Positions 1 through 17,650 of a stretch of DNA of 64,000 nt are shown piece after piece. The notes under the pieces were generated by a model. That model was not told the origin of the DNA. It searched no databases and saw only the letters and a list, made by a program, of their open reading frames with translations. Within the stretch, counting starts at the first letter, position 1. Every line of letters starts with the position of its first letter. Source of the DNA: Variovorax paradoxus (GTDB lineage Bacteria > Pseudomonadota > Gammaproteobacteria > Burkholderiales > Burkholderiaceae_C); the NCBI RefSeq assembly GCF_030815855.1, contig NZ_JAUSXG010000001.1, positions 2,046,001-2,110,000 of the forward strand. Reading direction: 5' to 3'. A program made the translations under genes and the position numbers.

Positions 1-999
1 GCCGCCGTGACGCGCAGCGCCGACACTAGCCATAGAAGCCACGCCGGCACCAAGACGATTGCCTGCCAAGCGGCGGAACGAATCCCAGCGGCTACGCGGT
101 TCCCGCCGCAATCCGTCCAGCACGCCGCGACCGAATTCGTAGCTGGTGCGCTTGGCCCCGCCCATTGCCCACCGCGCCAGTCCGCTCGCGAGGCCGAATG
201 AACTGAGTGCGATGCCGCTCGCAAGCCCAGCCGCGATAGACATGATCTGGCGCATGACCAGCAGCACCAGCGAAGCACACAGCACCATGTTCAGTGCATC
301 CACAGTCACGATGGCTGCGCCGCGTGCGGCCGTCTGCGCGGCGTAAGAAGAAACGATCTGGAGCATGAGGCTCGCCACCAAAGAGGTTAGGACGGCGACC
401 AGTGCATAGTTGGCCAACTGGGCAATCCACGCCTCAAAAAATCGACGTGTGGCTTCGAAGAAAAGCAGACAGATGAAAACGGGCCCCAAGGCGAGGATCA
501 ATGCCAACGCGAGCCTGGACAAAACAAGCAGAAAGAGCGCGTAGACGGCCAAGCCTCCGATGATGAAGTAGACGATGGCTCCAGCCAAATAGAAGCCAAA
601 GTCGCCGTTCAATACACCGCCTTTGTTCCAAAGATTTGAAGCAACGGTCCCGCCTTTGTCCCATATCGCATCAATCACGGACACAGGGCTCGATGCACCT
701 GTGATCTCTGCCGCAAGTTGGACCGGTGCGTTGAAGAAAGTGTCCACGATGACTCCGTTGTAAAGCCAAAGTCTCAGACCTACGCCCAGTACGATCGCGA
801 TGAAGAAGATGCGCTTGACCCCCTCCCATATCGGTTCTTGAACTCTTCCGGTCAGGCTGAGGAATCCCCAAAGCATTACGTAGATCGTGGCGAGCGTTAC
901 CACTGCAGGCTCAATGACACCGGCCACAGTCGCCGTTTTGGCCGCGAGGTATTCGGTCAATTGCTCGTTGAGCCACGTCCAGAATTGCTGAAAGAACAT
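1..999 (-). CDS. virB6: VirB6/TrbL-family type IV secretion membrane protein (partial, runs off the left edge)
   Basis: The minus-strand frame is open from an ATG at 999 to base 1 (333 codons, no stop), so the C-terminus is missing. It starts MFFQQFWTWLNEQ and has several hydrophobic segments: one around residues 30-50, one near 65-80, a strong pair around 140-185, and more around 200-270. After these comes a basic Arg-rich tail. This is the layout of VirB6/TrbL, the polytopic inner-membrane component of the mating channel. It is the last visible gene of the leftward operon, 19 bp after the small membrane protein. Family assignment rests on topology and operon position. Confidence 0.85.
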   Translation of the reverse strand, partial: MFFQQFWTWLNEQLTEYLAAKTATVAGVIEPAVVTLATIYVMLWGFLSLTGRVQEPIWEGVKRIFFIAIVLGVGLRLWLYNGVIVDTFFNAPVQLAAEITGASSPVSVIDAIWDKGGTVASNLWNKGGVLNGDFGFYLAGAIVYFIIGGLAVYALFLLVLSRLALALILALGPVFICLLFFEATRRFFEAWIAQLANYALVAVLTSLVASLMLQIVSSYAAQTAARGAAIVTVDALNMVLCASLVLLVMRQIMSIAAGLASGIALSSFGLASGLARWAMGGAKRTSYEFGRGVLDGLRREPRSRWDSFRRLAGNRLGAGVASMASVGAARHGG

Positions 1000-1018
1000 T
1001 GCTCGCCTCGTCGAACTT

Positions 1019-1228
1019 TTATTTCCCGGAGCCACTAGGAGGCGGCATCGTCGGCTGAAATCGATTCTGGAAGTCCCCATGCTCGGCCCTTGATACTGCC
1101 GGCTCGGTTGTTTCGGACGCTCCGCTAGCGGGGGACGCGGCTGGAGTCGAGACCTGCCTCAGGAAGCGATAAACGCCTCCCACGGCAAGTACTGCAATCA
1201 CAACGATGACGATCGCTGATTTGGACAT
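1019..1228 (-). CDS. Small single-pass membrane protein between virB5 and virB6
   Basis: It is 69 residues long, with an N-terminal hydrophobic segment (about residues 4-22) followed by a short Ser/Pro/Ala-rich tail. There is no cysteine, so it is not a classical lipoprotein. The slot between the VirB5-like and VirB6-like genes is where RP4-type systems carry TrbK (entry exclusion, also about 69 residues) and where VirB systems carry VirB7 or Eex lipoproteins. The position suggests one of these roles, but the missing lipobox argues against a direct equivalence. It starts 6 bp after the virB5 stop and is clearly part of the operon. Confidence 0.6.
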   Translation of the reverse strand: MSKSAIVIVVIAVLAVGGVYRFLRQVSTPAASPASGASETTEPAVSRAEHGDFQNRFQPTMPPPSGSGK

Positions 1229-1234
1229 GACGAT

Positions 1235-1966
1235 TCACGAATTGGGAACAAACCGAGTGTTGAATCCGCCATGGCCTGAGATGACTTGCTCCCGAGTGCG
1301 CTGCTGCTGGGCCGCTTCCTCGGCTCTTGCAATCTGATAGAGACTCTGCAGTTTTGTCTGCTCATTGGTCAGCATGTTCTGCTCGGCCTGGATCCTTGCC
1401 TGCAGGTCCTGGATCGCCTTGGGGTCCTGTGCGGAAGCGATGCGACTGATCAGCAGTTGCAGCGCCGAGAAACGCTGGCTGGTGTTCTGGTATGCGCTTT
1501 GAGTCATCCCGTTGAGCAGTGCTGCCGACTGCCGCCCTTGCTCGACGATCAGCCGCAACTCCGGACTGAGCGCCTCCATCTGGGTTCCTGAGAGGATGCT
1601 GTTGGCATGCATGATCGATTGCACCCGGCTGGCTAGCCCCGCATAGCCGGCCGACGTGCCGTTGAGCGTGTTCATCAGCTCGCCATAGCTGGGCGGCAGG
1701 TAGTTGCGCGCGAGTTCCGAGGTGGGCAGCAACTGCTCCATGCCGCGACTTCCCGTCATCGCGTTGTGGGTCTGGGTCAGCTGGTCCTTCGATTCCTTCA
1801 GTTGGTCGTATTGCTTCTGCATCCCGGAGATCTGCTGCTGCCAGTACATGACCTGCTGAATCAGGTTGGCGACGGCCGTGACGTCGATCACCGGGATGCC
1901 GGCTTTCGCATGCAGCGGTGCGAGCGAAGCCGCCACGAGGAGGAGGGCAACAAGGAACTTACGCAT
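1235..1966 (-). CDS. virB5: VirB5/TrbJ-like minor pilus protein
   Basis: It has 243 residues. The start at 1966 is supported by an AGGAGA ribosome site directly upstream and by a clean signal peptide (MRKFLVALLLVAASLAPLHAKA). The mature protein is largely helical and Gln-rich, with two coiled-coil stretches (about residues 40-65 and 180-225), as in VirB5/TrbJ proteins found at the T-pilus tip. It overlaps the 3' end of virB4 by 8 bp, so translation is probably coupled. A longer upstream extension of the frame lies inside virB4 and was discarded. Confidence 0.8.
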   Translation of the reverse strand: MRKFLVALLLVAASLAPLHAKAGIPVIDVTAVANLIQQVMYWQQQISGMQKQYDQLKESKDQLTQTHNAMTGSRGMEQLLPTSELARNYLPPSYGELMNTLNGTSAGYAGLASRVQSIMHANSILSGTQMEALSPELRLIVEQGRQSAALLNGMTQSAYQNTSQRFSALQLLISRIASAQDPKAIQDLQARIQAEQNMLTNEQTKLQSLYQIARAEEAAQQQRTREQVISGHGGFNTRFVPNS

Positions 1967-4466
1967 GGGAGTTCTCCTGGTGTAAGAGCGAACGGGGAGG
2001 GCGGTCGGCCAACGCCTTGCGGAAGGGCGCAAGCCATTTGTCGGGATCCGGTCCGAAGGTCGCGATGCACTCGCGCATGAGGCGGACATTGCTCGTGCGC
2101 CCAGAGATGACGTGCAAGGCGTCATCGAAGCCGTGGAGATCGAGCTGTGCGACCACGCTGACATGGTTCTGCTTGATGAGAAATTGCCGAGAGCCAGGCT
2201 CGAGTTCCTGCTTGATGAGCGCGAACTCCCTGTCAGTCAGGTTGAAGCCCTGGGTGTACTCGTCGTAGTCCGCCTCCGGATTGGGGAACAGGATCTTCGT
2301 GGGCGTCTGTTCCACGATCGCACGCGCAATGCTGGAATCGAGCACATGGCTGGTGCTCTGGGTGAAGGTGGCGATGTTCGCGTTCTTCTTGCGCCAGGTC
2401 TCCAGGCCGTTCTTGGCGAACTTCGCGAAGGCCGGGTCGCTCAGGAGCTTGGCGAATTCGTCCATCCAGCACACCAGCGGGCGGCCATCCACCATCCGGT
2501 TGACCAGATGAAAGAGGTACATGGTCAGCGGCGCACGCACGGCTTCGTTGTCGAGGAAGTCGGTCACGTCGAAGCCGACCAAGGCGTGCCGGGCCAGCAG
2601 CGGAGCCACGTCGTCGCGATCGTTGTCGAAGACCCAGGCATAGTCGCCGCGCTCCGAGGCGCACCATCTGCGAAGGCGCGCGTGCATCCCCTCGGGGTCC
2701 GTGATGTCGAGGAAGGCCACCAGACGGGACAGGCGCCTGAACGAGCGTTCGAGCTTCAGGGTGCCATGCAACGCCTGGTCGAGGTCGTCCTCCTGACGGA
2801 CGCTCAAGGTATCGGTCGGCGTTCGCATGACGAGGCGCCTGAGCCAGTGCCGCATGAACTCGACGTTGTCGGTGACCGCATCGTCGAGCTGCAGCGGATT
2901 GCAGCCGGTCGGCACGCCGTTCTTGAGCGGGAGGTACTGGCCGCCCAGCGCTCGCACGAGGATGTGCAGTCCTTCGTCCTTATCGAAGATGACCTGCGTG
3001 GCATCGAGGCGATTGCAGATCGCCACCATGCAGAAGCCCAGCAGCGTGGTCTTGCCGGTACCGACCGGCCCGACTCCGGTAATGTGTCCGACGTCGCGGC
3101 GACTGCCGCCGTCTGGGCTGCGCGGGTCGCACGCATGCAGCGAGAAGTAATAGGGCGAGCCGGCACGGGTCATGAACATGGCCAGCGCATCGCCCCAGTA
3201 GTTGCCCGTCGCCCGGCCGGTCGGGAAATTGTGGAAGGGCGACATCGCGGCGAAGTTGCGGCTGGTCACGGGCGCCTTGCGGCTGCGGTAGCCGAAGTTT
3301 CCCGGCAGCTGCGCCCAGAACGCCGCCTCCAGCGCGAGGTCCTCGCGCGCCACGACCATTCCCGTGTCGCCCAGCAGGTAGCGGGCGCGGGCCACGTTGT
3401 CGTTGAGCTGCTTGAGGCGGGGCCGGCCTTCGGCCTCGCCGACGCCGTCGTAGGTGTCGGCCAGCACATGCAGGCTGAAGTGGTGGTCGCCCATCACGAA
3501 GCGGTTGCTCATCAGGTCGTCCAGCGCGTCCTTGAGCTCCTCGGCCTGCGAGACGGCCAGGTCGCCGGCGGCTGCCATCCGGTGATGCTGGCGGCTCATC
3601 ATGTCGGTCGCCGTGCCCTTGGCCAGGAAGGTGAAGCTTTGCGTGAACACGAAGGGGAAGGGGGCGGTCAGCAGCGCGCTGAACATGCCCGGCGCTGTCG
3701 GCGTGGGGTACTCCTTGATGCCGAGGAATGCCCCGATCCGCGTCTGGGTGCCCGTGCGGTATTCCATGGCTTCGTTGCCGAAGAAAGGCCGGGTGGTGGC
3801 CAGGACCTCGTTGAGGGGTGAGCGAGGCAGCGGCATGCGCTGCCATTCCCCGTTGACCAGCAGGCCGTGGAATTCCATCAGGGAGGAGAACAGCACATCC
3901 TCTTCGTGCGGCCGATAGATGCCCAGTGCTTCGGGGTCGTAGCGCTCCAGAGCCGCGAGCAGCTCCTGGCGCAGCTTGCCGCAGGCATCGAGGGCATCGC
4001 GCAGTTCCGCCTGCGCACCCTCCGGGTCCGCGCGCCTGAAGAGCCGCAATGCGGCGTTGCCTATGCGGGTCGGCTGCGGCCGGAAGACGACCGACAGGTA
4101 CAGCTCGTTGACCATCAGCCGCTCGCCGGCCATCTTGCGGCGGTACCGCTGCTCGATCTCCTCGGCGAACCCGGGAACCGTCCGCCCGGCCGGATAGGCT
4201 GTCTCGCGACGCCGGACCACGTGGGTCCACAGGGCAAGGTTGGGCGAGGCGATGTTGCGCAGCAGGACATTGAGGCGCTCGTGCCAGCCGTTGATGTCAT
4301 CGTCGTCCGCGCTTTCGAAGCTCGTGCCGGCCAAGCGCAGCGTCTGCACATAGTCGCCCGCGCGCGTCCGGGCCACATGCTCGTCCACATGCGACGACAG
4401 CGGGATCATGGTTGCGGCGCCGGCTTCGCGGCGCAGCGTGTGCTCGGAGCGTGACAGCAGCTTCAT
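1959..4466 (-). CDS. virB4: VirB4-family type IV secretion ATPase
   Basis: It has 835 residues, the usual size for VirB4/TrbE. A Walker A motif, GPVGTGKTT, sits at about residues 466-474, and a Walker B-like CWMDEFAKLL occurs near 660. Further family motifs follow (TFTQST around 690). The N-terminal third is the CagE/TrbE/VirB domain. This ATPase sits at the cytoplasmic base of the channel and powers pilus assembly and DNA transfer. It lies between virB3 (12 bp upstream) and virB5 (8-bp overlap). Confidence 0.93.
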   Translation of the reverse strand: MKLLSRSEHTLRREAGAATMIPLSSHVDEHVARTRAGDYVQTLRLAGTSFESADDDDINGWHERLNVLLRNIASPNLALWTHVVRRRETAYPAGRTVPGFAEEIEQRYRRKMAGERLMVNELYLSVVFRPQPTRIGNAALRLFRRADPEGAQAELRDALDACGKLRQELLAALERYDPEALGIYRPHEEDVLFSSLMEFHGLLVNGEWQRMPLPRSPLNEVLATTRPFFGNEAMEYRTGTQTRIGAFLGIKEYPTPTAPGMFSALLTAPFPFVFTQSFTFLAKGTATDMMSRQHHRMAAAGDLAVSQAEELKDALDDLMSNRFVMGDHHFSLHVLADTYDGVGEAEGRPRLKQLNDNVARARYLLGDTGMVVAREDLALEAAFWAQLPGNFGYRSRKAPVTSRNFAAMSPFHNFPTGRATGNYWGDALAMFMTRAGSPYYFSLHACDPRSPDGGSRRDVGHITGVGPVGTGKTTLLGFCMVAICNRLDATQVIFDKDEGLHILVRALGGQYLPLKNGVPTGCNPLQLDDAVTDNVEFMRHWLRRLVMRTPTDTLSVRQEDDLDQALHGTLKLERSFRRLSRLVAFLDITDPEGMHARLRRWCASERGDYAWVFDNDRDDVAPLLARHALVGFDVTDFLDNEAVRAPLTMYLFHLVNRMVDGRPLVCWMDEFAKLLSDPAFAKFAKNGLETWRKKNANIATFTQSTSHVLDSSIARAIVEQTPTKILFPNPEADYDEYTQGFNLTDREFALIKQELEPGSRQFLIKQNHVSVVAQLDLHGFDDALHVISGRTSNVRLMRECIATFGPDPDKWLAPFRKALADRPPRSLLHQENSHA

Positions 4467-4478: not shown

Positions 4479-4847
4479 TCAGACCACCGCCACGGGCCAA
4501 GTCCGCATGCGGCGGCGCCCCCGCCAGTTGGGCATGTCCAGCGCCAGGGGGCTGTACGAGTTCGCACGCCAGAACCGCAGGTTGCCGCCGAGCATGGCGG
4601 GCAGGCGCGTGCGGCCCCACAGCTGCAGCAGGTCGAAGAAGCGCGGCTCGTACAGGCAGACCAGGTAGAGGACCCCGTGGATCGGCACGAAGGCCAGCAG
4701 CCACGCGAGGCTCTTGGTCACGATGAATGACTCGGTCGTGACGACGATGTTGAACATCATGGCCGAGTAGGTGACGCCCCAGACCATCGACGGCCGTGTC
4801 ATGCCGACGAACAGAGGATCCGCAGCGATGCCCTGGTTGCGACTCAC
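4479..4847 (-). CDS. virB3: VirB3-like type IV secretion protein
   Basis: It has 122 residues. The N-terminal region contains DPLFVGMTRPSM, the conserved VirB3/TrbD signature preceding two transmembrane helices (about residues 22-40 and 45-65). The rest is a short basic cytoplasmic tail. VirB3 is an inner-membrane partner of VirB4 in pilus assembly. It lies between virB2 (13 bp upstream) and virB4, the canonical B2-B3-B4 order. Confidence 0.85.
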   Translation of the reverse strand: MSRNQGIAADPLFVGMTRPSMVWGVTYSAMMFNIVVTTESFIVTKSLAWLLAFVPIHGVLYLVCLYEPRFFDLLQLWGRTRLPAMLGGNLRFWRANSYSPLALDMPNWRGRRRMRTWPVAVV

Positions 4848-4860: not shown

Positions 4861-5193
4861 TTACACCCCGAACAGACCCCGGATCCAGGAGACGATCTGG
4901 GGGCCGCCGAAGACCAGCACGGTGCCGATCACGACGGCGACCATCCACCACCAGCTCAGGCGGCCGAACCAAGCCATGGCGCCGGAGACCATCACGGCGA
5001 CCGCCGCCAGCGGCGTCAGGATGGCAACGAGTTGCTGCTGGGTCGCGTTGGCGCCTGTCGCGAACGGGCTTCCGGCCCAGACGATGTCGGCAGGTGCGGC
5101 CGCGAGCACGGCGATGAGCAGGCATCCGATCCATCGGGTTCGGACGCCAAATCGCGCTGGGGGCCGGATGTGGTGGATCGAGCATGCGGTCAT
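4861..5193 (-). CDS. virB2: VirB2/TrbC-like conjugative pilin
   Basis: It has 110 residues. A hydrophobic export signal (about residues 20-38, ending near IVWAGSPF) is followed by two further hydrophobic helices separated by a short loop (WFGRLSWWW). This is the prepilin topology of VirB2/TrbC. The ATG overlaps the stop of the preceding gene in an ATGA arrangement, so the two are translationally coupled. The product is expected to be the main T-pilus subunit. Confidence 0.85.
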   Translation of the reverse strand: MTACSIHHIRPPARFGVRTRWIGCLLIAVLAAAPADIVWAGSPFATGANATQQQLVAILTPLAAVAVMVSGAMAWFGRLSWWWMVAVVIGTVLVFGGPQIVSWIRGLFGV

Positions 5194-5756
5194 GGCGTGA
5201 CTCCAGTGGCCGAGGAAGATCCCGCGGGCACTTGCCCGGACGGGGGCGTGAGAGAAACCGAAGCCGACGGGTCAATGCGCCGGCTGCCGCCGTAGACGTC
5301 CCACCAGGGCGTCGGCGCCGCGCGCTTGCCGGCGGGGGCAGGGCCCTTGGTGGCCTGAGCGGCCATGGGCTTGACCGCCGCGGTCTGGGCGGAGGTACGC
5401 GAGGTGGACGCGATCTCTCGCTGGATGGCCGCGATATCGCCGAGCGTGCGAACGCGCTGCGCCTCGGCTTCGGTCGCTGCCTGCATATCGGACGCGGCGA
5501 GCCGCTCAGCCCTACGGCGCGCGAGATCCTCCAATTGCGCTTGCGACTTCCCGAGCTCTTCGCGAAGGATCGCGATGCGGTCGTGGTCGCGCGCCGCCTG
5601 CTGCTGGGGACCGACGACTTGGGATGTGCCGGGCTCTGCCTGTGCCCACAGGGCGCAGGCGTGCGTCGTCAAGCCAGCGACAACAAGCACGGGAGGCCAG
5701 GCCGCATATCGGCCTTTGTCGGTCGCGTGCCTGCGTTGAACATCGGGTGCTTGCAT
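5190..5756 (-). CDS. Exported coiled-coil protein heading the virB operon, function unknown
   Basis: It has 188 residues from the ATG at 5756. A TTG at 5765 adds three residues and has the better spaced GGAGG upstream, so it may be the real start. A hydrophobic stretch (about residues 18-35, ending CALWAQAEPG) looks like a signal peptide. Next comes a charged heptad-like coiled coil (about 45-105) with Arg, Glu, Gln and Ala, then a Pro/Ala/Ser-rich tail. It is the first gene of the operon and overlaps virB2 by 4 bp. I do not recognise the family; it has no lysozyme-like motif, so it is not an evident VirB1. Confidence 0.7.
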   Translation of the reverse strand: MQAPDVQRRHATDKGRYAAWPPVLVVAGLTTHACALWAQAEPGTSQVVGPQQQAARDHDRIAILREELGKSQAQLEDLARRRAERLAASDMQAATEAEAQRVRTLGDIAAIQREIASTSRTSAQTAAVKPMAAQATKGPAPAGKRAAPTPWWDVYGGSRRIDPSASVSLTPPSGQVPAGSSSATGVTP

Positions 5757-5793
5757 GTGGCGCAATGTCCACCTCCGCGCATGCGTGTGTCGA

Positions 5794-5809
5794 CTATTGT
5801 TTTTGACAG
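5794..5809. promoter_or_regulatory. Candidate lux-box-type site in the virB/parA divergent promoter region
   Basis: The 16-mer CTATTGTTTTTGACAG fits the loose CT-N12-AG pattern of LuxR-family sites. It shares 11 of 16 positions with the dyad upstream of luxI (both keep CTGTCA and ATAG at the ends on one strand). It lies 38 bp before the ATG of the first virB-operon gene and 185 bp before parA, and includes a TTGACA at 5803-5808. Its left half is a weaker match than its right half, so binding is inferred. Confidence 0.45.
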
Positions 5810-5994
5810 TGGCATCGCAAAGCGTGGGGCGGCGATATTCGCGAGCGACGCGGCACGGCGATCCATCACGGACCAACGAGGCAGGGCCGCCCTGCGCCGG
5901 GATGGCCCTGTCGCAGGTTTCGGCGGCAGCCGCGCAGCGTGCCATGTGGTGTAGAGGACCCGCATGGTTCGCGTCGAGGCCTGAGGAGCAAGTC

Positions 5995-6783
5995 ATGGGC
6001 AACGTGGTCATCTTCGGCAACCAGAAAGGTGGCGTCGGCAAGTCGACCCTGGCGGTGCTGTACGCATGCTGGCTGGCCGAGATGCGACGCCAGTCGGTGT
6101 GTCTGATCGATCTCGACGCGCAGGCGAACAGCTCGAAATCGCTGCGCAGGTCCTCGGCGATCGTCGAGGCGGTGGAACTTTTCGGTGGGGACATGGGCGC
6201 GATCGTCCCGGCCCGCGCGCAGACCATTGCCCTGGTACCGGGCAGCAAGAAGCTGGCCGACGTCGAACTCGCGAGGGCGGAAGTCGTGATTCCCACATTT
6301 CGCAGGAACGTGATTCGCCTGGCGCAGGAATTCGACGCAGTCGTGATCGATACGCCGCCAGCACTGGGCTTGCGCATGAGCGCGGCGCTGATCGCCGGTC
6401 ATGCCGTGGCCTGCCCGATCGAGCTGGAGGAGTACAGCATCGATGGCGTCGCCGACATGCTCAGAACCATCTTTGGCGTCAGACAGCGCTACAACCCGCA
6501 ACTGCGGCTGGCGGCCATCGTTTTGAACCGGTTCAATCCGCATTCGTTGCGGCAGAAGGCCGCGATGCAGGATCTGGCCTTGAACTTCCGGGAGTTCGTG
6601 ATACCGGCACGGATCTCGACCCGCTCGGCCATTCCCGAGGCGCTGGCCGCGGGCGTGCCGGTGTGGCGATTGCCCAAGAGCGCGGCCCGCGAGGCGAGCC
6701 TCGAGGTGATGCAGGTGTTCGAGTTGCTGCAGCAACGCATCGACGCCTCGAGCATGCCGGTGCCTGCGGACGAGCAGCCATGA
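5995..6783 (+). CDS. parA: ParA-family partition ATPase
   Basis: It has 262 residues. The start follows a GAGGAGC ribosome site; longer upstream versions cross the intergenic region and were rejected. The deviant Walker A motif KGGVGKST is at residues 11-18, Walker A' (IDLDAQANSS) near 37, and Walker B (VVIDTPP) near 115. These mark a ParA/MinD-type ATPase that moves ParB-bound DNA. Its stop overlaps the parB start (ATGA). In an integrated element it probably stabilises the excised circular form. Confidence 0.93.
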   Translation: MGNVVIFGNQKGGVGKSTLAVLYACWLAEMRRQSVCLIDLDAQANSSKSLRRSSAIVEAVELFGGDMGAIVPARAQTIALVPGSKKLADVELARAEVVIPTFRRNVIRLAQEFDAVVIDTPPALGLRMSAALIAGHAVACPIELEEYSIDGVADMLRTIFGVRQRYNPQLRLAAIVLNRFNPHSLRQKAAMQDLALNFREFVIPARISTRSAIPEALAAGVPVWRLPKSAAREASLEVMQVFELLQQRIDASSMPVPADEQP

Positions 6784-7679
6784 ATGCGCCCGACGGGCTG
6801 GACCTGAGTGCGCTGTCGCAGTTCAGGGCGGCTGATCTGCTCACGGGCGAAGCGGCCTCTGCGGGCCTGGGCACACCGATGCAGGTGGCGCTCGACCGCA
6901 TCGACTTCGACCCTCGCCAGCCCCGCCGTCGCATCCGTAGCGAACGCATCGAGGAACTTGCCGCATCGATCCAAGAGCATGGCGTGCTGGAGCCGGTATC
7001 GTTGCGACGCCATCCCGAACATGCGGACCGATACATCGTCAACCGCGGCGAACGCAGGGTGCGCGCCGCGCGCCAGGCAGGGCTCGCCACAGTCCCGGCA
7101 TTCGTGGACGAGCGGGTCGACCCGTTCGCCCAGGCCGCGGAGAACCTGCACCGCGAGGACATGTCGCCATTTGATCTGACTTCCTTCATCGCCGACCGGG
7201 AAAAGGAGGGCCATTCGCGCGCCGAGATCGCGCGCCGCCTGGGCAAACCGCGTTCCTTCATCACCGAGGCCGCTCGGCTCAGCGACGCACCGCCGCAATT
7301 GCGGCAGGCGGTGGAGGACGGGCGGGTCGGCGGGGACGTGCGATTGCTCTACGAGCTGGTGGCCATCGCGAAAGATCGCCCGCATGAACTTGAGGAACTG
7401 CTGGCGCGGGGCGAGCCGATCGGACGTGCGCAGGCAAGACATCGCCCGCCGCCGTCCCAGTCCCTCCGCGGCTCGATGCCAGCGGCGCCCGGGAGCGGCC
7501 TTGCCAAGGTCATCAGCGCCGGCCGCACGGTGCTTGTGGTGGAGCACGGCGGACGGCGCGGATCGCTGCGCGTCAAGGCGAAGGACGGCGACGTCGGAGA
7601 GGTCCGCTTCGGCGACGGCACGCGTGCCTTGCTGCCGCTGGCGGACTTGCGGCTGGTGTGCTGGGCCACAGAAGATTAG
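6780..7679 (+). CDS. parB: ParB/KorB-family partition protein
   Basis: It has 299 residues, starting at the ATG that overlaps the parA stop. The N-terminal ParB domain contains GERRVRAARQAGL (about residues 83-95), the CTP-binding motif, and ENLHREDMSPFDL (about 120-132). A helix-turn-helix follows (SRAEIARRLGKPRSFI, about 150-165). The C-terminal 80 residues resemble a KorB-type SH3-like domain. Proteins of this group bind parS-like palindromes for segregation and may also repress element promoters. Confidence 0.92.
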   Translation: MNAPDGLDLSALSQFRAADLLTGEAASAGLGTPMQVALDRIDFDPRQPRRRIRSERIEELAASIQEHGVLEPVSLRRHPEHADRYIVNRGERRVRAARQAGLATVPAFVDERVDPFAQAAENLHREDMSPFDLTSFIADREKEGHSRAEIARRLGKPRSFITEAARLSDAPPQLRQAVEDGRVGGDVRLLYELVAIAKDRPHELEELLARGEPIGRAQARHRPPPSQSLRGSMPAAPGSGLAKVISAGRTVLVVEHGGRRGSLRVKAKDGDVGEVRFGDGTRALLPLADLRLVCWATED

Positions 7680-7787
7680 GGGTGCGGCGGCCGTCGGTTG
7701 ACGAGTTTTGGCGCCTGACGTGCGCGCGTCGTGGCGGGCGGTCCGGCGACGGGCAGTCGCTGTTGCGCCGGGAAAGGCCTACGCCTG

Positions 7788-8768
7788 CTAGGCCGCGCCT
7801 GCACTTTTCATCGTGGCGAGCCGCCGCCGGTATTCGCGCGGCGTCATCTGCAGGTCGCGAACGAAGGCTCTGCGCATCACCTCCTGGGACCCGTAGCCGC
7901 ATTGCCCAGCGATGGTCTTGAGGGGAAGTGGGCTTGTCTCGAGCAGGCGGCGGGCGGCGTCGAGGCGCATCTGCTGTACGCCACGCCCGGGCGACAGACC
8001 CGTCGCGCGTTCGTAGAAGCGTGCGAAGGAGCGTGCGGACATGTGGACCTCCTGCGCCAATCGGGCGACGCTGAGGTTCTCCTGCAGATGCGCCGCGATC
8101 CACTGATGCAGCGTGCCGATGCGCGCATCGATCGCGGGCGGCTCGGTTGACATCCGGCGACGGCGTGGCATGCCGTAGCGACGGCGGCGTGGTCCGGCAA
8201 GGCGCGTGGCGAGCATGTCCGCAAATGCAGCACCTCGGTCCTCCGTGATCCACGACAGCGCCAGGTCTTCCCCCTGGCCCGGTTCGATGACCCGCCAGCC
8301 ATGCGCTTTGGTGCAAGCCGCGGACAGGTCTGCGCCCTGCCCACGGCGCGGCGCCGGCGGTGCGGCGCGGCCTTGTCGCCGCACGGCGTGGACGTCTGGC
8401 GTACGCGGCAGCAAAGCTCGGGCACCCAGGACGGCGCAGCGGCTCAGCTGCCTCCGGTTCCAGGAGAGCCATTCGCGCAAACGCCGCCCGCCCGCCGGTC
8501 CAGCCGAGCCCGGATCGGGCTCGCCACTGATGAAGAGCGTGCTCGCCCGACCGACGAGCCGGTGCGGCAATGCACGCGTCGAGAGTGCCACACCACTTGA
8601 ACTCAGGGCCTGGCCGCCCGTCGCCGAGGCCAATCGAACGTCGTAGCCGGCGAGCTTGCCGCGCGCCCTGCGCAAGGCGGCATTGGCGGCCTTGAAGACC
8701 GCGAGCATGCGGATGATGTCGAGAAGAAGGAATCCGGGAAGTAGCAGGAACCAGACCTTGTGCATCAT
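7788..8768 (-). CDS. AraC/GlxA-family transcriptional regulator with a degraded N-terminal domain
   Basis: It has 326 residues. The C-terminal 110 residues carry a typical AraC double helix-turn-helix (ARLAQEVHMSARSFARFYER and the second at TIAGQCGYGSQEVMRRAF). The N-terminus (WFLLLPGFLLLDIIRM) looks like the start of a DJ-1/PfpI-type GlxA sensor domain. The middle (about residues 110-165) is an Arg/Pro/Ala-rich stretch that does not resemble the family, so the sensor domain may be decayed. It diverges from luxR. Its target is unknown. Confidence 0.75.
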   Translation of the reverse strand: MMHKVWFLLLPGFLLLDIIRMLAVFKAANAALRRARGKLAGYDVRLASATGGQALSSSGVALSTRALPHRLVGRASTLFISGEPDPGSAGPAGGRRLREWLSWNRRQLSRCAVLGARALLPRTPDVHAVRRQGRAAPPAPRRGQGADLSAACTKAHGWRVIEPGQGEDLALSWITEDRGAAFADMLATRLAGPRRRRYGMPRRRRMSTEPPAIDARIGTLHQWIAAHLQENLSVARLAQEVHMSARSFARFYERATGLSPGRGVQQMRLDAARRLLETSPLPLKTIAGQCGYGSQEVMRRAFVRDLQMTPREYRRRLATMKSAGAA

Positions 8769-9088
8769 GAGGAGCCACCGTAGGGAGGATCAATCCGGAA
8801 TCTCACGACGCTGCGCCGCACCGCGCCAGTGCACGAAGGGGAGCTCGCGAGATTGGCAGAAATGGTGGTGAATTTTGCCTCCGGGCTCGGCCATGCGCTC
8901 CTAGACTGTCGCACCCTTGCCTCCATCACATGCTGAGTGGCCGCCGGGGGCGAGCAGCAGGCCGGCCCGGCGCGGGTCGGTTCAAAGGCTGAAGCCGCTG
9001 GTCTTCTCTTCCTGGCGGACTCCACACCGGGAGCCTCGACGGTACTCGCGAAAAGGGCGGGGTTGCCGACGACACAGGAAGCGCACCT
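8769..9088. promoter_or_regulatory. Intergenic region between the AraC-type regulator and luxR
   Basis: This 320-bp gap must hold the divergent promoters of the AraC-type gene and luxR. The only structure I can point to is an imperfect dyad with half-sites TTGGCA (8853-8858) and TTTTGCC (8873-8879), which could be an operator for the AraC/GlxA-type protein. I see no lux-box-like sequence and no convincing sigma-70 hexamer pair. Confidence 0.3.
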
Positions 9089-9799
9089 ATGAACGATTGG
9101 ACTCAGGATGTTCTTGGTCGGTTGAGCCAGGCCAGCGAGCCTTCGGAGGTGCTCGCGCAGATCAGCGTGGCAACCAGGCACCTCGGCTTCGAGCACTGCG
9201 CCTACGGGCTGCGCACGCTCGTGCCCTTCACCCGACAGAAGACCTTGATGTTCAGCACGTACGACGAGCGGTGGAACCGCCGTTACATCGATGCCGGATA
9301 CCTCCAGATCGATCCCACGGTCGCTCACGGCGTGCACAGCGGCACGCCCGTGGTCTGGAACAACGAAGTCTTCCGGAACGCCCCACAGATGTGGGACGAG
9401 GCGCGCTCGTTCGGCCTGCGCTTTGGCTGGGCGCAATCGGTCTTCGAGCCCGATGCGCGGGTCGGCATGCTGACGCTTGCCAGGTCGGGCGAACCACTGA
9501 CGGCCGCGGAGATGCTCGCCAAGGACCCCTTGCTGCAGTGGCTGGTGCATACCGCCCACCGCGCGTTCTGCCGCCTTCTGGGAGGCAGCCCGCTCGAGAG
9601 GATCGAGCCGCTGAGCGGACGACAGGTCGAGGTGCTGCGCTGGACGGGTGATGGCAAGACGAGCGATGCGATCGCATCCATTCTTGGCATCTCGAAACCC
9701 ACGGTCGAATTTCATCTGCAGAACGCCATGGCCAGATTGGGTGCGCCCACCAAGAGTTCGGCCGCGGCGTTCGCTTCACGGCTCGGGCTCCTGAACTGA
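9089..9799 (+). CDS. luxR: LuxR-family quorum-sensing regulator
   Basis: It has 236 residues with both domains. The N-terminal autoinducer-binding domain keeps the conserved pocket pattern: Trp and Tyr in DERWNRRYIDAGYLQIDP, then Asp-Pro, then Trp in TPVVWN. The C-terminal LuxR helix-turn-helix runs LSGRQVEVLRWTGDGKTSDAIA to KPTVEFHLQNAMARL. The start follows an AGGAAGC site. It is convergent with luxI across a 42-bp gap. It is expected to bind an acyl-homoserine lactone and then DNA sites such as the dyad at 10495-10510. Confidence 0.93.
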   Translation: MNDWTQDVLGRLSQASEPSEVLAQISVATRHLGFEHCAYGLRTLVPFTRQKTLMFSTYDERWNRRYIDAGYLQIDPTVAHGVHSGTPVVWNNEVFRNAPQMWDEARSFGLRFGWAQSVFEPDARVGMLTLARSGEPLTAAEMLAKDPLLQWLVHTAHRAFCRLLGGSPLERIEPLSGRQVEVLRWTGDGKTSDAIASILGISKPTVEFHLQNAMARLGAPTKSSAAAFASRLGLLN

Positions 9800-9841
9800 T
9801 TGGAGGGCCGCAGGGGGCGCGCCAGCCCGGCTGCAGGGGAC

Positions 9842-10438
9842 TCAACCGACCGCGTCGGCGTGCCGGTGTTGGCGCGGATGCCAGTTCGTGTCCACGTCGA
9901 TGAAACAGGCAAAGAGATGCTGGCCCTCGATCAGCACCGGCGGCGCCGCGCGGTGCACGGACAGGCCCGCGCGGCGCAGGATGCGCTCGATGCCCAGTGG
10001 CGAGGCGCTGATGAGCCGCCGTCCTCCCTGCTTGGCAACAGTCCGCATCGCGACGCTCAGCATGTCGAGCGCGAGCGACCAGCCGTGTGGACTCTCGCCC
10101 GCGCTGAGCCGCATCCAATCGGCAGCGGCGAATCGCGACAGTTCCCAGACGTCAGGCGAGCACGGCGCGGGCGTGTCGCCGAGCAGTTGAGGAAAGACAC
10201 TGGCGAGCAGATAGGGCCGGTGCGTGGGCAAGAGGCGGCTCGTGCCGACAATCTCCCCGTCCGTATTGCGCGCGATCAGATAGATGGTGTCCTTCCGGTC
10301 AAATTCGTCCAGCTCCAGCCGGCCGCGCGTATCGAGCTTCCAGCCCAGCTTCTCGACGAAAATCTCGTGCCGGTAGCGTGCCATGTCGAACAGCACGTCT
10401 GCCGTGAAAGAGTCGATCGTTCCCGCAATGATCTCCAT
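9842..10438 (-). CDS. luxI: LuxI-family acyl-homoserine lactone synthase
   Basis: It has 198 residues from the ATG at 10438, which has a GAGGTGA ribosome site. The invariant LuxI residues are present: Arg, Phe and Trp in RYRHEIFVEKLGW, the Asp pair in DEFDRKD, Arg in GTSRLLPT, and Glu and Arg in WELSRF. The enzyme makes an N-acyl-homoserine lactone from S-adenosylmethionine and an acyl donor; chain length cannot be read from the sequence. A lux-box-like dyad 57 bp upstream suggests autoinduction. The upstream extension of the frame crosses that promoter and was rejected. Confidence 0.93.
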   Translation of the reverse strand: MEIIAGTIDSFTADVLFDMARYRHEIFVEKLGWKLDTRGRLELDEFDRKDTIYLIARNTDGEIVGTSRLLPTHRPYLLASVFPQLLGDTPAPCSPDVWELSRFAAADWMRLSAGESPHGWSLALDMLSVAMRTVAKQGGRRLISASPLGIERILRRAGLSVHRAAPPVLIEGQHLFACFIDVDTNWHPRQHRHADAVG

Positions 10439-10494
10439 GAGGTCACCTCGTTGAATGAGGCCCGCATTACAGCGTGATGACAGACGCGGGGACA

Positions 10495-10510
10495 CTGTCA
10501 GAGTTGATAG
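10495..10510. promoter_or_regulatory. Lux-box-type dyad upstream of luxI
   Basis: The 16-mer CTGTCAGAGTTGATAG is an inverted repeat: CTGTCA against CTATCA, with 5 of 6 positions pairing around a 4-base centre. It matches the general LuxR-family pattern CTGTNAG...CAG closely. It lies 57 bp upstream of the luxI ATG, between the 3' end of the exporter gene and luxI. This is the expected place for LuxR-mediated positive feedback. Confidence 0.7.
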
Positions 10511-10585: not shown

Positions 10586-11441
10586 CTACGGACGCCGCGC
10601 GGTCCAGACAGTGAAGACGCCGGCCGCGACGATCAGCAGCACGCCGACGGCGGCCTGGGGCCGAGGCATGTCGCCCCAGATCGCGTATCCCAGCAGCAGG
10701 GCCCAGACGATCAGGCTGTAGCGGAAAGGTGTGACGACCGAGAGATCGACGCCGCGGCAGGCGACGATGAGCGCGTAGTTGCCCAGCGCCGCGCAACCCG
10801 CAGCCGCCGCGAGCATGCTGAGCTCGTACCGCGTGAGCGTCGTCCAGCGTTCCACGAGACCCAGCAGCAGGCCCGCCAGGCACACGGCCAGCGTGGTCGC
10901 GACCGCGATGGTCGACGAAGGGATCGTGGCGGGGATGCGTCGCGTCACCAGGTCGCGGGCCGCCAACGAGGCGGCACATAACAGCGCACAGGCAAGACCG
11001 GCCGCGGGGACATCCGGCCGCGCAGCCGGCTGGATGACCAGCAGGACGCCACCAAATCCCGCGGCAGCAGCCAACAGACGCCCACCACGCCAGGGCTCCC
11101 ACCGCAGCGCCATCGCCGTGGCGGCGATCATCAGTGGTGCGGTCATCATGAGCGTGCTCACAGTGGCAAGCGGCGCCAGCGACAGGGCGACCACGGAGGT
11201 GAGGGCCGTCGTGACCTCGAGTCCGCAGCGCACCCCCACGAGCGGGCGCAGTGCCATTCGCCAGCTACCGCGCGTGCCCCGCGCGATGGCCAGGACGAAG
11301 ATGGTCGCGAACGCACCGCGCACGGCAAGAACCTGCCCGGGCGGCAGGCTTTGCGCGACCAGCTTCACGAAGACATCGTTGAGGACGTAGCAGCCCATGG
11401 CCACCAGCATGAGCAGGATCCCCCGGCGATTGGCCTGCGCG

Positions 11442-11449
<8 letters not shown>
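10586..11449 (-). CDS. EamA/DMT-family membrane exporter
   Basis: It has 287 residues from the ATG at 11449, overlapping the 3' end of the aminodeoxychorismate synthase gene by 8 bp. There are ten hydrophobic segments in two homologous five-helix halves, as in EamA/RhaT transporters. The first helix begins GILLMLVAMGCYVLNDVFVK and the last is VGVLLIVAAGVFTVW. The family exports amino acids, metabolites or drugs; the substrate here cannot be read from sequence. Coupling to pabAB suggests export of a chorismate-derived product or a folate-pathway compound. Confidence 0.85.
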
Positions 11450-13625
<2,176 letters not shown>

Positions 13626-14669
13626 GGGATGCTCCTTGGCGGTAAGCGGAGCTGTGCATCGTTGAAGATCCGTGTCCGCGTCGCAACTGCGCAATGTGCT
13701 AGTTGCTCGGCGTGGGCAGCTTGCCGAAGGGGACGCTGCAGGTCCCTGGTAGATCAGGGTTCACTCATCTTTTGCCCTGAACCGATCGCGGTGGAAGGAG
13801 CGTTGCCCATGCGGTCTCACTGCGCAACGCTTCTCATCTCATGGCCGGTGCGCGAACCCAATACTGCTGTCTGTTCCGGCGCTCGCCGTCGGTCTGCGGC
13901 CAAGACGGATTCGATCGACAAGGCCGCAGCCAGTACACGGGCACCTCGCCAATGCGCGGTGACGACTGCGACCGGTGCGAGGAGAAAAGTTGCGCCTCGA
14001 TCTGCCCACCACACGGCGGTGTCAATCGAGGTCATGCCGAGCGATGCCTGCTCGAACGAGATGAAACACGCCGGCGAAAGGCGCGCTCTTCCCGCGACCT
14101 CGAGTCACTCGCGCCGGTGATGTTCCATGGGCCGTTGCCTGAGCGAGAAAGTGCGTCGCAGGCGGAACGAGCCGCCTTCGCACGAGTCCACTCCGGCTTC
14201 CTCGAAGACGCGTCCTGTGGACTTGGACTTGTGCTGGGATGGCTTCTGTCACTGCACGCCGGCGCGTGTGGAGGGCGCAGGGACGGTCCTTCCATGCCCG
14301 CGTCGGGACGCACAGCCAAGCTGGGTTCCGGGCCAGCACAGGTCTGATGCAGCGATGAGGAGTTTTTGGAAGTGAGACGCCGCGCGCCATCAGGCCGGCC
14401 ATCCCGTGAGTTTTCAGAGGCCTCTCACAACTCATAGTTGTCTAAGGTGGCACCTCGTCGCACGCTAGAAGAAAATCCATGCGGAAGACGATGCTTGAGA
14501 GAGAGGCTGCCGCTGGGTTGGACAGCGATTGTCGAGCCAGGCGCAGTGTGGCGCTGTCGCTCTGGCTTGGGCACCAGTTCTACTTCTCTCCGGGCTCTTC
14601 AAGCGAGGAAATGCTCCGTTGAAACGCACAACCGCAACTTGAAAGCACTGCACCCATGAAGGATCTGTC
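13626..14669. other. 1-kb region without a convincing gene
   Basis: No frame here has a good ribosome site, family motif or sensible protein character. Open frames of 70-170 codons occur on both strands but have irregular composition (Arg/Cys-rich or cut by the next frame). The region looks less GC-biased than its neighbours. The start of the gap must hold the pabAB promoter and the end the alpA promoter. A 15-bp dyad at 14427-14441 is listed separately. It may be decayed cargo. Confidence 0.5.
14427..14441. promoter_or_regulatory. Perfect 6+3+6 dyad, possible operator
   Basis: ACAACT-CAT-AGTTGT is a perfect inverted repeat in an otherwise featureless stretch, 229 bp upstream of the AlpA-like gene. 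Its size suits a small repressor dimer. There is no direct evidence for the binding protein. Confidence 0.35.
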
Positions 14670-15073: not shown

Positions 15074-16312
15074 CTAGGCCGCCTTGAGTGCCAGGATTTG
15101 CGCGCTTGCGGCAAGTTGGCCCAGGTAGTCCGCCCAGCGCTGCATCATGTGCTTGCGCTTGTCCATGAACTCCGCGCGGTCGTAGGCCGTGCCCAGCGGC
15201 CCGCTCTTGCCATGGGCAAGCTGTGCCTCGATGACGTCGGGCGAAATGCCGTGCAATTGCTCCGCCATGACCGTGCGGGCCATTGCACGAAAACCGTGGG
15301 CGGTCATCTCGTCGTTGGTGTACCCCAGCCTTCGCAATGCGGCGTTCACGGTGTTTTCGCTCATGGGGCGTTCTCCCGTGCGGATGCTGGGGAATACGTA
15401 TCGGCCATGTCCGGTCAATGGCTCAATTTCCTCCAGTGTCTGCAGCGCCTGCTTCGCCAGCGGCACAAAGTGGGGCCGGCCGTTGAGCTTTTCATGGAGC
15501 CTGCGCTTCATGTCCTGCGCCGGGATGGTCAGCATCGCTTTTTCGAAGTCGATCCAGGCCCATTCCATCGCACGGATGTTGCCCGGGCGCTGAAAGAGCA
15601 GGGCGGACAGGAGGAGGGCGGCACGGGTGATCGGCTGCCCGCTGTAGCCGTAGATGGCGCGCATCAATTCGCCCACTTTCTGGGGCTCCAGAACGGCGGC
15701 CATGCTCTTTGTGAGCACAGGCCGGAGCGCGCCGTGCAGGTCCGGGGCCGGATTGCTCGCGCACCGGCCTGTCTGCACACCGTAGCGGAACACCTGTCCG
15801 GCGCACTGGCGCAGGGTGTGGGCTGTCTCGATCACGCCCCGGCCCTCGATGCGCTTGAGCGCGTGCAGAAGGTCCTTGGCTTGGATCGAGGCGATGGGCA
15901 GCTTGCCGATGTAGGGGAACAGGTCCTTGTCCATGATGCGCAGCCAGCGCTCCGAATAGGACGCGCTCCAACTGCTGGCCTTGGTCGCATGGAATTCCCG
16001 CGCCAAGGCCTCGAAGGTATTGGCTGCTTCCACCGCCCGGGACAGTTTCTCTGCGCGCTTCGCCAGGCCGGGATCGACGTTGTCTGCAAGCAGCTCGCGA
16101 GCCTTGTCGCGTCGCTGCCGGGCCTTCGCGAGCGATACCGCAGGGTAGACGCCCAAGGCCAGCGTCTTCGCCTTGCCGTTGAACCGATAGTCCATGCGCC
16201 AGTACTTGCTTGCGGCTTTGACGCGCAGGTACATGCCGCCACCGTCCGCGTAGCGCTCGCCGATCTCGGTGCCCTTGTGCTTCACTTGCCTCACGAAAGT
16301 GTCTGTCAGCAT
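15074..16312 (-). CDS. int: P4-type tyrosine recombinase (integrase)
   Basis: It has 412 residues from the ATG at 16312, which has a GGAAGGAG ribosome site; the longer frame to 16381 includes repeat-rich DNA. The N-terminal DUF4102-like arm-binding domain (YADGGGMYLRVKAASKYW) is followed by a SAM-like core-binding domain and the catalytic domain. Catalytic residues are visible at Arg247 (RPGNIRAME), His339 and Arg342 (HGFR), His367 (AQLAHGKS) and Tyr377 (AYDR). It lies 182 bp from the 3' end of tRNA-Arg on the same strand. It should catalyse site-specific integration and excision there. Confidence 0.95.
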   Translation of the reverse strand: MLTDTFVRQVKHKGTEIGERYADGGGMYLRVKAASKYWRMDYRFNGKAKTLALGVYPAVSLAKARQRRDKARELLADNVDPGLAKRAEKLSRAVEAANTFEALAREFHATKASSWSASYSERWLRIMDKDLFPYIGKLPIASIQAKDLLHALKRIEGRGVIETAHTLRQCAGQVFRYGVQTGRCASNPAPDLHGALRPVLTKSMAAVLEPQKVGELMRAIYGYSGQPITRAALLLSALLFQRPGNIRAMEWAWIDFEKAMLTIPAQDMKRRLHEKLNGRPHFVPLAKQALQTLEEIEPLTGHGRYVFPSIRTGERPMSENTVNAALRRLGYTNDEMTAHGFRAMARTVMAEQLHGISPDVIEAQLAHGKSGPLGTAYDRAEFMDKRKHMMQRWADYLGQLAASAQILALKAA

Positions 16313-16329
16313 TGGGTTTTTCTCCTTCC

Positions 16330-16391
16330 TGTCGGTACCTGGTTTCGGCAGCAGGGCAGATACCTGCAAAAGTACCGACAAAATACCGACA
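16330..16391. repeat. Short repeats between integrase and tRNA, candidate recombinase arm sites
   Basis: TACCGACA occurs at 16373-16380 and again at 16384-16391. Its complement TGTCGGTA occurs at 16330-16337, so three copies sit within 62 bp. Such clusters near an att core are typical arm-type integrase or excisionase binding sites. Alternatively they are operators for autoregulation of the integrase promoter, which must lie here. Confidence 0.45.
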
Positions 16392-16493: not shown

Positions 16494-16520
16494 TGGCCTG
16501 CCCGGAGGGGATCGAACCCC
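16494..16520 (-). other. Probable element attachment site (3' end of tRNA-Arg)
   Basis: P4-type integrases recombine within the T-arm and acceptor end of tRNA genes, and the integrase lies directly beyond this end. The core is expected to include GGTTCGATCCCC and the CCA end. The matching copy must be at the far left end of the element, outside the window, so the exact limits cannot be set here. Confidence 0.55.
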
Positions 16521-16570
16521 CGACAACCTGCTTAGAAGGCAGGTGCTCTATCCAACTGAGCTACGGGCAG
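16494..16570 (-). tRNA. tRNA-Arg (anticodon UCU)
   Basis: The minus strand gives a 77-nt cloverleaf. The acceptor CTGCCCG pairs with CGGGCAG, the D-arm is GCTCAGTTGGATAGAGC, the anticodon arm is CCTGC-CTTCTAA-GCAGG with TCT in the loop, the T-arm is GGGGG-TTCGATC-CCCTC, and CCA is encoded. It reads AGA codons. It is the integration target of the neighbouring element. Confidence 0.97.
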
Positions 16571-16708
16571 ATTGCGAGCCGGACAGAAGCAAAGGCTCGG
16601 CGGCGGGTCGCGCACATAAATGCTGACCTTCGGATTATCGCCTCAGTCCCGACGCCATTTGCCCGCCGCAGGCGAGGAGGGCGGCGACGAGGCGCTTCAA
16701 CGCTTTGT

Positions 16709-17551
16709 CTACGAGCGAACGCGGGCCGAGGGCGAGCCGAGCCGGCTTGAGATTTCCGCTGCGGCATCGCGAACGGCTTGCGCAGCGCTGGAATTCCAGT
16801 CCGCCGAAAAACCATCCTGATGCCCGAGCGCCGTGATGACGACGGCGGCGTTTCCTTCGTGATCGAGGGCGGGGGCACTGAAAGCGTTCACGCCGGGGAT
16901 CGGTTTCCCCTCGGCGCGCGTGACGCCATGCTCGCGAAGCTCTTCGGCCGCGTCTCGCAGTTCCTTGGCCTTCAGCTTCAGCAGCGGGACCTTCTGATTT
17001 TCCGGGTCTCCCAGCGCTGACGCCATGGCTTTCTCGATGCGATCGCCGGACATGACGCCCGCGAAAGCGCGGCCGGTGGCCGTGCCGAGGATGGACATCA
17101 CGGTTCCGGCGCGCATCGACACGTGAAGCGGTTCGCGGGCATCGATCATTCGAATGATGGTGGGTCCGAAGTTGCCCCAGATGGCAACCGCTACCGCATG
17201 CCCCGTCGATGCGGCAAGCCGCTCGGCGACGGGCAGGGCAACGCGGACGGGGTCCAGTTGATGCAGGCATGTCAGCCCTAGTTGCAATGCCGCGGGCCCC
17301 AGCGCGTACCGGCCTGTTTCGGACTCCTGCTCAATCAGCCCGAGCTTGCCAAAACTCACCAGGTACGGGTGCGCACGCGAGGCCGGCAGCCCGGAGCGAC
17401 TGGAGAGATCTCTGAGCGTCAAGGGGCTCTGGCTGCCAGCCAGGGCGAGCAACAGGCGCCCGCCAACCTCGATTGCCTGAACGGCGCGCTGCGCCTTGTC
17501 TTCCTTCACTGCTGCTCCTCCTTCGGGTTCGGTCTCTCGCGTCTCTCGCAT
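16709..17551 (-). CDS. IclR-family transcriptional regulator
   Basis: It has 280 residues from the ATG at 17551, which has a GAAGGA site. The N-terminal winged helix (VQAIEVGGRLLLALAGSQ, then LTLRDLSSRSGLPASRAHPYLVSF) and the C-terminal ligand domain (RMIDAREPLHVSMRAGTVMSILGTATGRAF) are typical of IclR regulators of aromatic-acid or organic-acid catabolism. It is divergent from the hydrolase, hydroxylase and Bug operon. The dyads in the 183-bp gap are its likely operators. Confidence 0.88.
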   Translation of the reverse strand: MRETRETEPEGGAAVKEDKAQRAVQAIEVGGRLLLALAGSQSPLTLRDLSSRSGLPASRAHPYLVSFGKLGLIEQESETGRYALGPAALQLGLTCLHQLDPVRVALPVAERLAASTGHAVAVAIWGNFGPTIIRMIDAREPLHVSMRAGTVMSILGTATGRAFAGVMSGDRIEKAMASALGDPENQKVPLLKLKAKELRDAAEELREHGVTRAEGKPIPGVNAFSAPALDHEGNAAVVITALGHQDGFSADWNSSAAQAVRDAAAEISSRLGSPSARVRS

Positions 17552-17650
17552 AGGGTCCTTCAAGTTTGCGCGTCTAGTTTGCCTACCGATTGGCTGCCGA
17601 GCAGCGGTCACCGGGTCGCAAACCTAGGGAAAACACCAGATTCTTCTTAC

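Follow-up and report, generated by a model that had tools for sequence, protein, structure and literature searches.

A quorum-sensing gene pair, luxR and luxI (luxRI), lies beside a conjugation and partition locus (virB and parAB) in the 64,000-nucleotide stretch of Variovorax paradoxus DNA analyzed here (hereafter the window; positions 2046001-2110000 of a single-contig, 5.95-Mb genome labelled G000). With predicted LuxR-binding sites (lux boxes) both before luxI and in the gap between the divergent virB and parA operons, we consider it probable that luxRI is a built-in quorum circuit of this Variovorax conjugation/partition locus. More tentatively, as a proposal that we rate somewhat below an even chance when its parts are taken together, the one lux box in the gap would be a two-way quorum switch by which a Variovorax secondary replicon (a chromid or megaplasmid, sometimes integrated) turns on its transfer operon and its partition operon, the layout would have arisen independently of the Agrobacterium TraR/repABC system, and some lineages without luxRI would have another parAB operator.

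At its left, the locus has virB6-5-4-3-2 and the small first gene of that operon on the minus strand. Next to the right come parA-parB on the plus strand, an araC-type regulator gene on the minus strand and luxR on the plus strand, followed by luxI, an EamA transporter gene, a PabAB-like enzyme gene, an integrase gene (all minus) and tRNA-Arg (Table 1). Left of virB6, past the window, are VirB8, VirB10, VirB11, VirD4, an LPD7 protein and TraX, with VirB9 identified by reading of open reading frames (ORFs), and a MobA/VirD2-like relaxase lies ~40 kb to the left. Domains of window proteins were called at Pfam cut-offs and, for the luxR and luxI products, solved relatives were taken from the PDB. 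Both genes are intact reading frames and convergent; LuxR is related to an RhlR-variant chain (7r3g, E 4.6e-52) and to 3szt (E 8.6e-41), while the best solved relative of LuxI is the acyl-homoserine lactone (AHL) synthase 3p2f (E 4.9e-44). With the two domain proteins adjacent and both scoring above the Pfam cut-offs, LuxR and LuxI are, on domain evidence, an AHL quorum-sensing pair.

A first-pass annotation of this DNA had described a complete luxR-luxI pair, a 16-mer upstream of luxI and a second site in the virB/parA gap, and we located all three where it had placed them. The luxI box is CTGTCAGAGTTGATAG at 10495-10510, which reads CTATCAACTCTGACAG in the luxI direction, and the second box (site 2) is CTGTCAAAAACAATAG on the minus strand at 5794-5809, which reads CTATTGTTTTTGACAG in the parA direction; counted on the sequence, 11 of 16 positions are indeed common to both. 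The term 'textbook-like dyad' suits the luxI box (10/16 positions symmetric, by eye) and does not suit site 2 of G000, whose virB-proximal half is degenerate; the equivalent site in G003, G082, G005 and the plasmid record CP138497 is a near-perfect or perfect palindrome. At luxI, the box ends 23 nt before the predicted -10 element TGTAAT in G000, and at 23–24 nt in all 16 genomes with luxRI linked to the locus (by a script that tried 22–24 nt), with agreement from an unrestricted profile of nine of these genomes, which served as a control and placed the best -10 spacing at 22–24.

Taken alone, the likeness of the two boxes is a weak argument for site 2, amounting to about a 6–7% coincidence. 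On the two strands of the window, matches of at least 11/16 occur at 19 places, the luxI box and site 2 among them, and 11/16 was reached by 169 of 3000 random pieces of 238 bp, the length of the virB/parA gap, and by 383 of 5364 pieces with an AT fraction of at least 0.36 (the gap itself has 0.34). A scan for CTGTCA-N6-ATAG, proposed in the first-pass annotation, returned two occurrences in the window (none in 100 shuffles) and three in the 5.95-Mb genome, counts that are weak evidence because the match itself supplied the pattern. By contrast with these counts, comparison among relatives and matrix scoring put site 2 well above chance. We trained a matrix solely on luxI-promoter boxes (8 distinct boxes, 16 genomes) and then applied it to virB/parA gaps, with p values from shuffles. 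Over 184 kb of G000, this matrix ranked the luxI box and site 2 first and second (24.3 and 16.1), with the third-best site at 13.7; it revealed no further box in the element, none before luxR and none near the integrase.

To place site 2 among relatives, we searched 101 Variovorax genomes with VirB4 and found 26 with a match of at least 72% identity, 25 of which remained after G094 (a VirB4 fragment on a cut contig) was excluded from all gap counts. luxRI was linked to the virB/parA locus in 16 (G000 included) and absent or unlinked in nine; the linked pair lay downstream of parAB in 15, and G018 has luxRI-pabAB on the other side of virB. All 16 linked gaps held a match to the luxI-trained matrix (p≤0.008 each; the gap of G060 was read up to the contig end, 211 nt), and six of the nine gaps from genomes without linked luxRI held none (p≥0.22). 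Among the other three, G005 has a perfect palindrome (p=0.002) on a 429-kb plasmid that also carries luxRI, 85 kb away and near the rep gene, and two were ambiguous and treated so on the tree described below (G014, p=0.010, whose contig also holds a luxI of 48% identity; G022, p=0.014). Two plasmid records close to genomes already counted, CP138516 (p=0.002) and CP070344 (p=0.010), have both luxRI and the box. The first-pass annotation had named absence of the second site from related elements as evidence against its proposal, and the site is instead present throughout the luxRI-linked set. A chance 11/16 match, for which one could cite the 6–7% of random 238-bp pieces that match equally well, is scarcely credible against conservation in 16/16 linked genomes and second place in 184 kb. 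Judging from sequence and distribution, we take a LuxR-binding site to be the most likely identity of site 2.

We evaluated promoter spacing on both sides of this site by scoring -10-like hexamers at 8–59 nt from the box in 11 representatives. On the parA side, the best spacing was 24 (mean 0.98 vs -7.48 over all spacings, sd 2.31), and a -10-like hexamer stands 22–24 nt from the box (GATATT at 24 nt in the window). In G082, G003 and CP138497, where the box is CTGTCAAAGATGACAG, it lies 23 nt from a -10-like TATATC at parA and far from the virB start, so that parA appears as its constant partner. Counting from start codons rather than from the edge of BLAST matches, and taking the virB start with the conserved motif, we found the box ~208 nt away in G082, ~217 nt in G003 and 154–187 nt in CP138497; other in-frame starts exist, such as ATGs at 64 and 88 nt from the box in G082.

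Site 2 might instead be an operator or parS for ParB/ParA, or an ordinary parA -35 (TTGACA), that merely resembles a lux box; it does lie in the parAB promoter and does contain TTGACA. We think this very unlikely, as ParB is kept in luxRI-less relatives (53–66% identity, eight other than G005) and yet the site is missing in six of the eight, and a matrix trained independently, on luxI boxes, finds it. An ordinary -35 at site 2 was also rejected on spacing, with 25 nt rather than 17 from TTGACA to GATATT. In luxRI-less gaps, read for parA promoter pairs without a shuffle control, the best-scoring pair in G015, G064, G096 and G002 was a -35/-10-like pair 17–18 nt apart close before parA, and in G056 such a pair was among the three best. 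The simplest reading of these gaps is an exchange of operator and promoter, in which the lux box would replace the parA -35 where luxRI is present. As a separate observation, a CTATAG..CTATAG palindrome occurs upstream of parA in luxRI-less G015, G056, G096 and G002 (gaps L159, L162, L166 and L170).

On the virB side, the best spacing was also 24 (-0.27 vs -6.93, sd 2.36). The predicted virB -10 in the window is the -10-like GACATT, 7 nt before the ATG, which would give a leaderless mRNA. The 3-wide virB spacing profile excluded G003, G005 and CP138497. Scores on this side are poor for G005 and good for G003 and CP138497 despite their distant virB starts, a distance that means the hexamer there is not virB's. 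In 14 of the 16 linked genomes, the box is 36 or 37 nt from a virB ATG and directly adjoins a virB -35 from which the second T of TTGACA is gone, reading TCGACA or TAGACC (13 by script; G047 by eye, since the script picked another pair). Among luxRI-less gaps with a scored hexamer, the virB -35 is TTGACA/C/T in five of seven, with G064 and G014 as exceptions; hexamer scoring returned no virB promoter for G022 or CP138497. In G005 the virB -35 is TTGACC, and the box lies ~10 nt beyond it (gap by eye), at 47 nt from the virB ATG. The first virB gene might also start at a TTG, considered for its upstream GGAGGT, that is in frame in G000 and its close relatives at 28 nt from the box; this start was rejected when its frame proved not to be kept in G056.

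These placements bear on what the box controls. LuxR could act on parAB alone, with virB transcribed from its own constitutive sigma-70 promoter and outside quorum control, and this alternative keeps a substantial, though less than even, share of our belief. The box keeps its 23-nt distance to the parA -10 in G082, G003 and CP138497 however far virB lies, and the promoter-like virB motif (TTGACA/TCGACA-18-GACATT) persists in 5/9 luxRI-less gaps. Against it, the box abuts the T-losing virB -35 in the 14 genomes above and lies 22–24 nt from the virB -10 (8 representatives), as at luxI, and the G005 box fits neither reading cleanly. A further alternative, that LuxR at site 2 would repress virB as a roadblock while activating parAB, so that vertical maintenance is favored over transfer at high density, could draw on the direct contact of the box with the virB -35 hexamer (5788-5793); the spacing nevertheless equals that of the luxI box (22–24 nt from the -10), an activating geometry in which the core promoter is not overlapped, and we regard this as improbable. 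Box placement thus suggests activation. The first-pass claim that one LuxR controls autoinducer synthesis together with the secretion and partition operons fits the placement for parAB and, in this lineage, for virB; as a proposal it largely stands, and what changes is the weight. parAB is the better-supported target (23 nt in G082 and G003 despite distant virB), and quorum control of virB is probable rather than firm because virB has a promoter-like motif of its own that is also found in luxRI-less gaps. A conjugation switch is unproven, and the emphasis moves from conjugation to partition.

Several observations weigh against the proposed control of parAB and virB through site 2. The parAB -10 is merely -10-like (GATATT) and is poor in G086 (0.3 and -1.2). 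An ordinary parA -35 is not general in luxRI-less relatives, with none in G014 or G022 and, in G068, a -35/-10 pair that was seen by eye and was not among the three best scoring. The one clear exception to the association of box and luxRI is plasmid record CP138497, from V. boronicumulans EBFNA2, on which the box looks perfect (p=0.002) and no luxI was found. This association itself rests on few events: on a ParA+ParB tree of 28 rows, the presence of luxRI and that of the box each require no more than three changes (for luxRI, two are forced by well-supported branches), and with 2–3 changes an independent-pairs test has no power. Across the 14 main gaps, the best-kept part is the virB start rather than the box (mean column conservation 0.92 for the virB start, 0.87 for the box, 0.72 for the spacer and 0.61 for the rest). 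Finally, site 2 of G000 is of the weaker, half-degenerate kind.

Reading genes, boxes, conservation, spacing and luxRI association from the sequence, we infer binding, direction of regulation, signal and the effect on transfer and segregation as follows. The AraC-type regulator probably sets luxR expression; LuxR with autoinducer would bind the luxI box and turn on luxI in positive feedback, and would also bind the one further box between virB and parA. There, at the place of the parAB -35, it should activate parAB, and in this lineage, where the same box is 24 nt from the virB -10 and beside a weakened -35, it would probably activate the virB operon too. At high carrier density, partition proteins and probably the mating-pair machinery would then rise together. 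Beside the regulator, a 33-nt block in the araC/luxR gap (8847-8879) is strongly conserved in eight aligned genomes and is a candidate AraC-type site controlling luxR.

We compared this arrangement with known systems. On the Ti plasmid, TraR activates traI-trb, tra and repABC (PMC3907764), of which repAB are the partition genes (PMC3907764, PMC7856919), and class II tra boxes precede the start by ~45 nt and partly overlap the -35, with one class II promoter region serving two divergent tra operons (PMC3907764). As in Ti TraR/TraI, LuxR and LuxI are borne on the element, and boxes stand (in Variovorax as predicted sites) at synthase, mating-pair and partition promoters; unlike Ti, the Variovorax LuxR is RhlR/QscR/SdiA-like rather than TraR, the mating genes are VirB-type, the host is a betaproteobacterium, and the 184-kb scan found only one extra box. 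The TraR equivalog model fails on the Variovorax LuxR (44.9 bits, cut-off 250), as do the TraI family models on LuxI (83.6 and 75.6 bits, cut-offs 250 and 292), and no rep gene adjoins parAB, where parB is followed by the AraC gene (by gene order; repC was not searched for). As read from sequence, the Variovorax circuit works like the Ti TraR circuit. It is not a member of the TraR/TraI family, because these models fail, LuxR is nearest RhlR/QscR/SdiA and parAB has no adjacent rep gene. The conserved block by the AraC regulator may point to a second input on luxR, like that of opine regulators on traR.

In the Mesorhizobium symbiosis integrative and conjugative element (ICE) ICEMlSym, TraR/TraI quorum sensing reportedly acts on excision. 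The G000 element resembles it as an integrated, tRNA-targeting conjugative element with a LuxRI pair and differs in that the 184-kb scan found no box near its integrase. Plasmid 4 of strain WDL1 (NZ_LR594692) shares the order virB2-11, VirD4, LPD7, TraX and parAB, has no luxI on its record and, instead of a lux box, presents at parA a -35-like hexamer 17 nt from TACTCT and a CTATAG..CTATAG palindrome.

The replicon that carries the locus varies among these genomes, and the locus probably occurs both on replicating molecules and integrated in others. The first-pass label of a tRNA-Arg integrative element was seen to fit G000 and G072 only (same tRNA and integrase). The G000 copy has an integrase at the att site beside tRNA-Arg and, as expected of an ICE, a relaxase, coupling protein and mating-pair genes (VirD4, VirB11, VirB10, VirB8, VirB9, MobA/VirD2-like). 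A search for a second att site within 80 kb leftward gave 13-mers only, and a 120-kb search gave a candidate. It is an imperfect copy of the tRNA 3' end, exact over 16 nt, that stands beside an integrase remnant 132.5 kb leftward, with the partial copy at genome positions 1929953-1929976, outside the window. The stretch at 1929642-1929976 (G000:C1; L061 3642-3976) contains an integrase N-terminal remnant beside this partial tRNA-Arg 3' end, together the vestige of an earlier element at this hot spot. Searching G000 with the left neighbor of tRNA-Arg from G066 gave scattered matches elsewhere only. In G047, only an integrase fragment by luxRI is kept, and in G066 the locus is on a single contig, far from tRNA-Arg. 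In G060, G105 and G020, it is on a second contig of 1.12–1.35 Mb, where its ParB is the only ParB-like protein detected with this query (10 chosen genomes searched); the G005 plasmid has a second ParB. Records CP138516 and CP070344 are plasmids of 1.24–1.30 Mb (megaplasmids) with the locus. A relative of the RA8 plasmid's Rep was found, at widely differing identity, in 22/25 genomes and in none of G000, G047 and G072. Strain VAI-C has a 2,479,635-bp chromid, equal in length to record CP063167, with putative conjugal transfer genes near the chromid replication locus (PMC8142574).

Other features of the neighborhood are as follows. The EamA transporter and PabAB-like enzyme (10586-13694) accompany luxRI and are adjacent in many of the loci compared; the PabAB-like fusion scores 367.8 bits against TIGR00553 (cut-off 328.4), and the PabAB of the luxRI neighborhood is present in 31/101 Variovorax genomes, 29 of which also have luxI (compared by eye). 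At the other end, in window positions 1-1235 and nine other loci, virB6 and the small gene that separates it from virB5 appear to be exchanged as a unit. Type one (window, L022, L024, L203) has VirB6 at 61–84% identity and a 69-aa protein with HGDFQNR[FY][QR]PTM, and type two (L023, L027, L028, L202) has VirB6 at 32–35% and a different protein of 74–82 aa; L026 is intermediate (VirB6 42%, 69 aa), and in L201 (VirB6 42%) the script found no small ORF. VirB4 identity stays at 85–97% while the VirB6 type changes. These types may be exclusion groups; the small gene is placed like eex in pKM101. To the right of the element, ~12 kb (16571-28634, including an autotransporter) between tRNA-Arg and the tRNA-Pro region is missing in G066, G004 and G059, where the two adjoin.

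Table 1. Features of the virB/parAB/luxRI locus and the adjoining end of the element, in window coordinates.
Feature	Position	Strand	Evidence or remark
virB6 homologue, cut by window edge	1-1000	-	
virB5 homologue	1235-1966	-	synteny with annotated records
virB4 ATPase	1959-4466	-	PF03135
virB3 homologue	4479-4847	-	synteny with annotated records
virB2 homologue (TrbC/VirB2)	4861-5193	-	synteny with annotated plasmid records
First virB-operon gene, hypothetical (VirB1 position)	5190-5756	-	synteny; without Pfam match
-10-like GACATT of virB (predicted leaderless mRNA)	5764-5769	-	7 nt before ATG
-35-like TCGACA of virB (predicted)	5788-5793	-	directly adjoins box
Second lux box (site 2), virB/parA gap (predicted)	5794-5809	+	sequence in text
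-10-like GATATT of parAB (predicted)	5834-5839	+	24 nt from box
parA	5995-6783	+	PF13614
parB (ParB_N + KorB domain)	6780-7679	+	PF02195, PF08535
AraC-family regulator, divergent from luxR	7788-8768	-	PF12833/PF00165
Conserved block, araC/luxR gap, possible AraC-type site for luxR expression	8847-8879	+	alignment, 8 genomes
luxR, autoinducer-binding regulator (RhlR/QscR/SdiA-like)	9089-9799	+	PF03472 (Autoind_bind), PF00196 (GerE)
luxI, acyl-homoserine lactone synthase	9842-10438	-	PF00765 (Autoind_synth; longer ORF form scored)
-10 element TGTAAT of luxI (predicted)	10466-10471	-	ATTACA columns invariant, alignment of 8 genomes
lux box of luxI (predicted)	10495-10510	-	sequence in text
EamA-family transporter, conserved partner	10586-11449	-	PF00892, synteny
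GATase + chorismate-binding fusion, aminodeoxychorismate-synthase-like (PabAB)	11442-13694	-	PF00117, PF00425
Tyrosine integrase of element	15074-16381	-	PF00589, PF22022, PF13356
tRNA-Arg (TCT), right end of element	16494-16570	-	

Plasmids of Agrobacterium and rhizobia are established cases in which quorum sensing controls conjugation and plasmid maintenance, and in the titles and opening parts of abstracts of the open-access literature we found no report of such control for Variovorax or for a Burkholderiales parAB/virB locus. Close relatives that have or lack luxRI allow a natural contrast and supply a ready-made panel of promoters. If the proposed circuit is true, two distant groups would each have brought transfer and partition under a single cell-density cue, and the partition genes concerned would include the only ParB-like ones detected with this query on the second contigs of G060, G105 and G020. 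On the more tentative two-way-switch proposal, cell density would set the segregation and sharing of a megabase-scale replicon in Variovorax.

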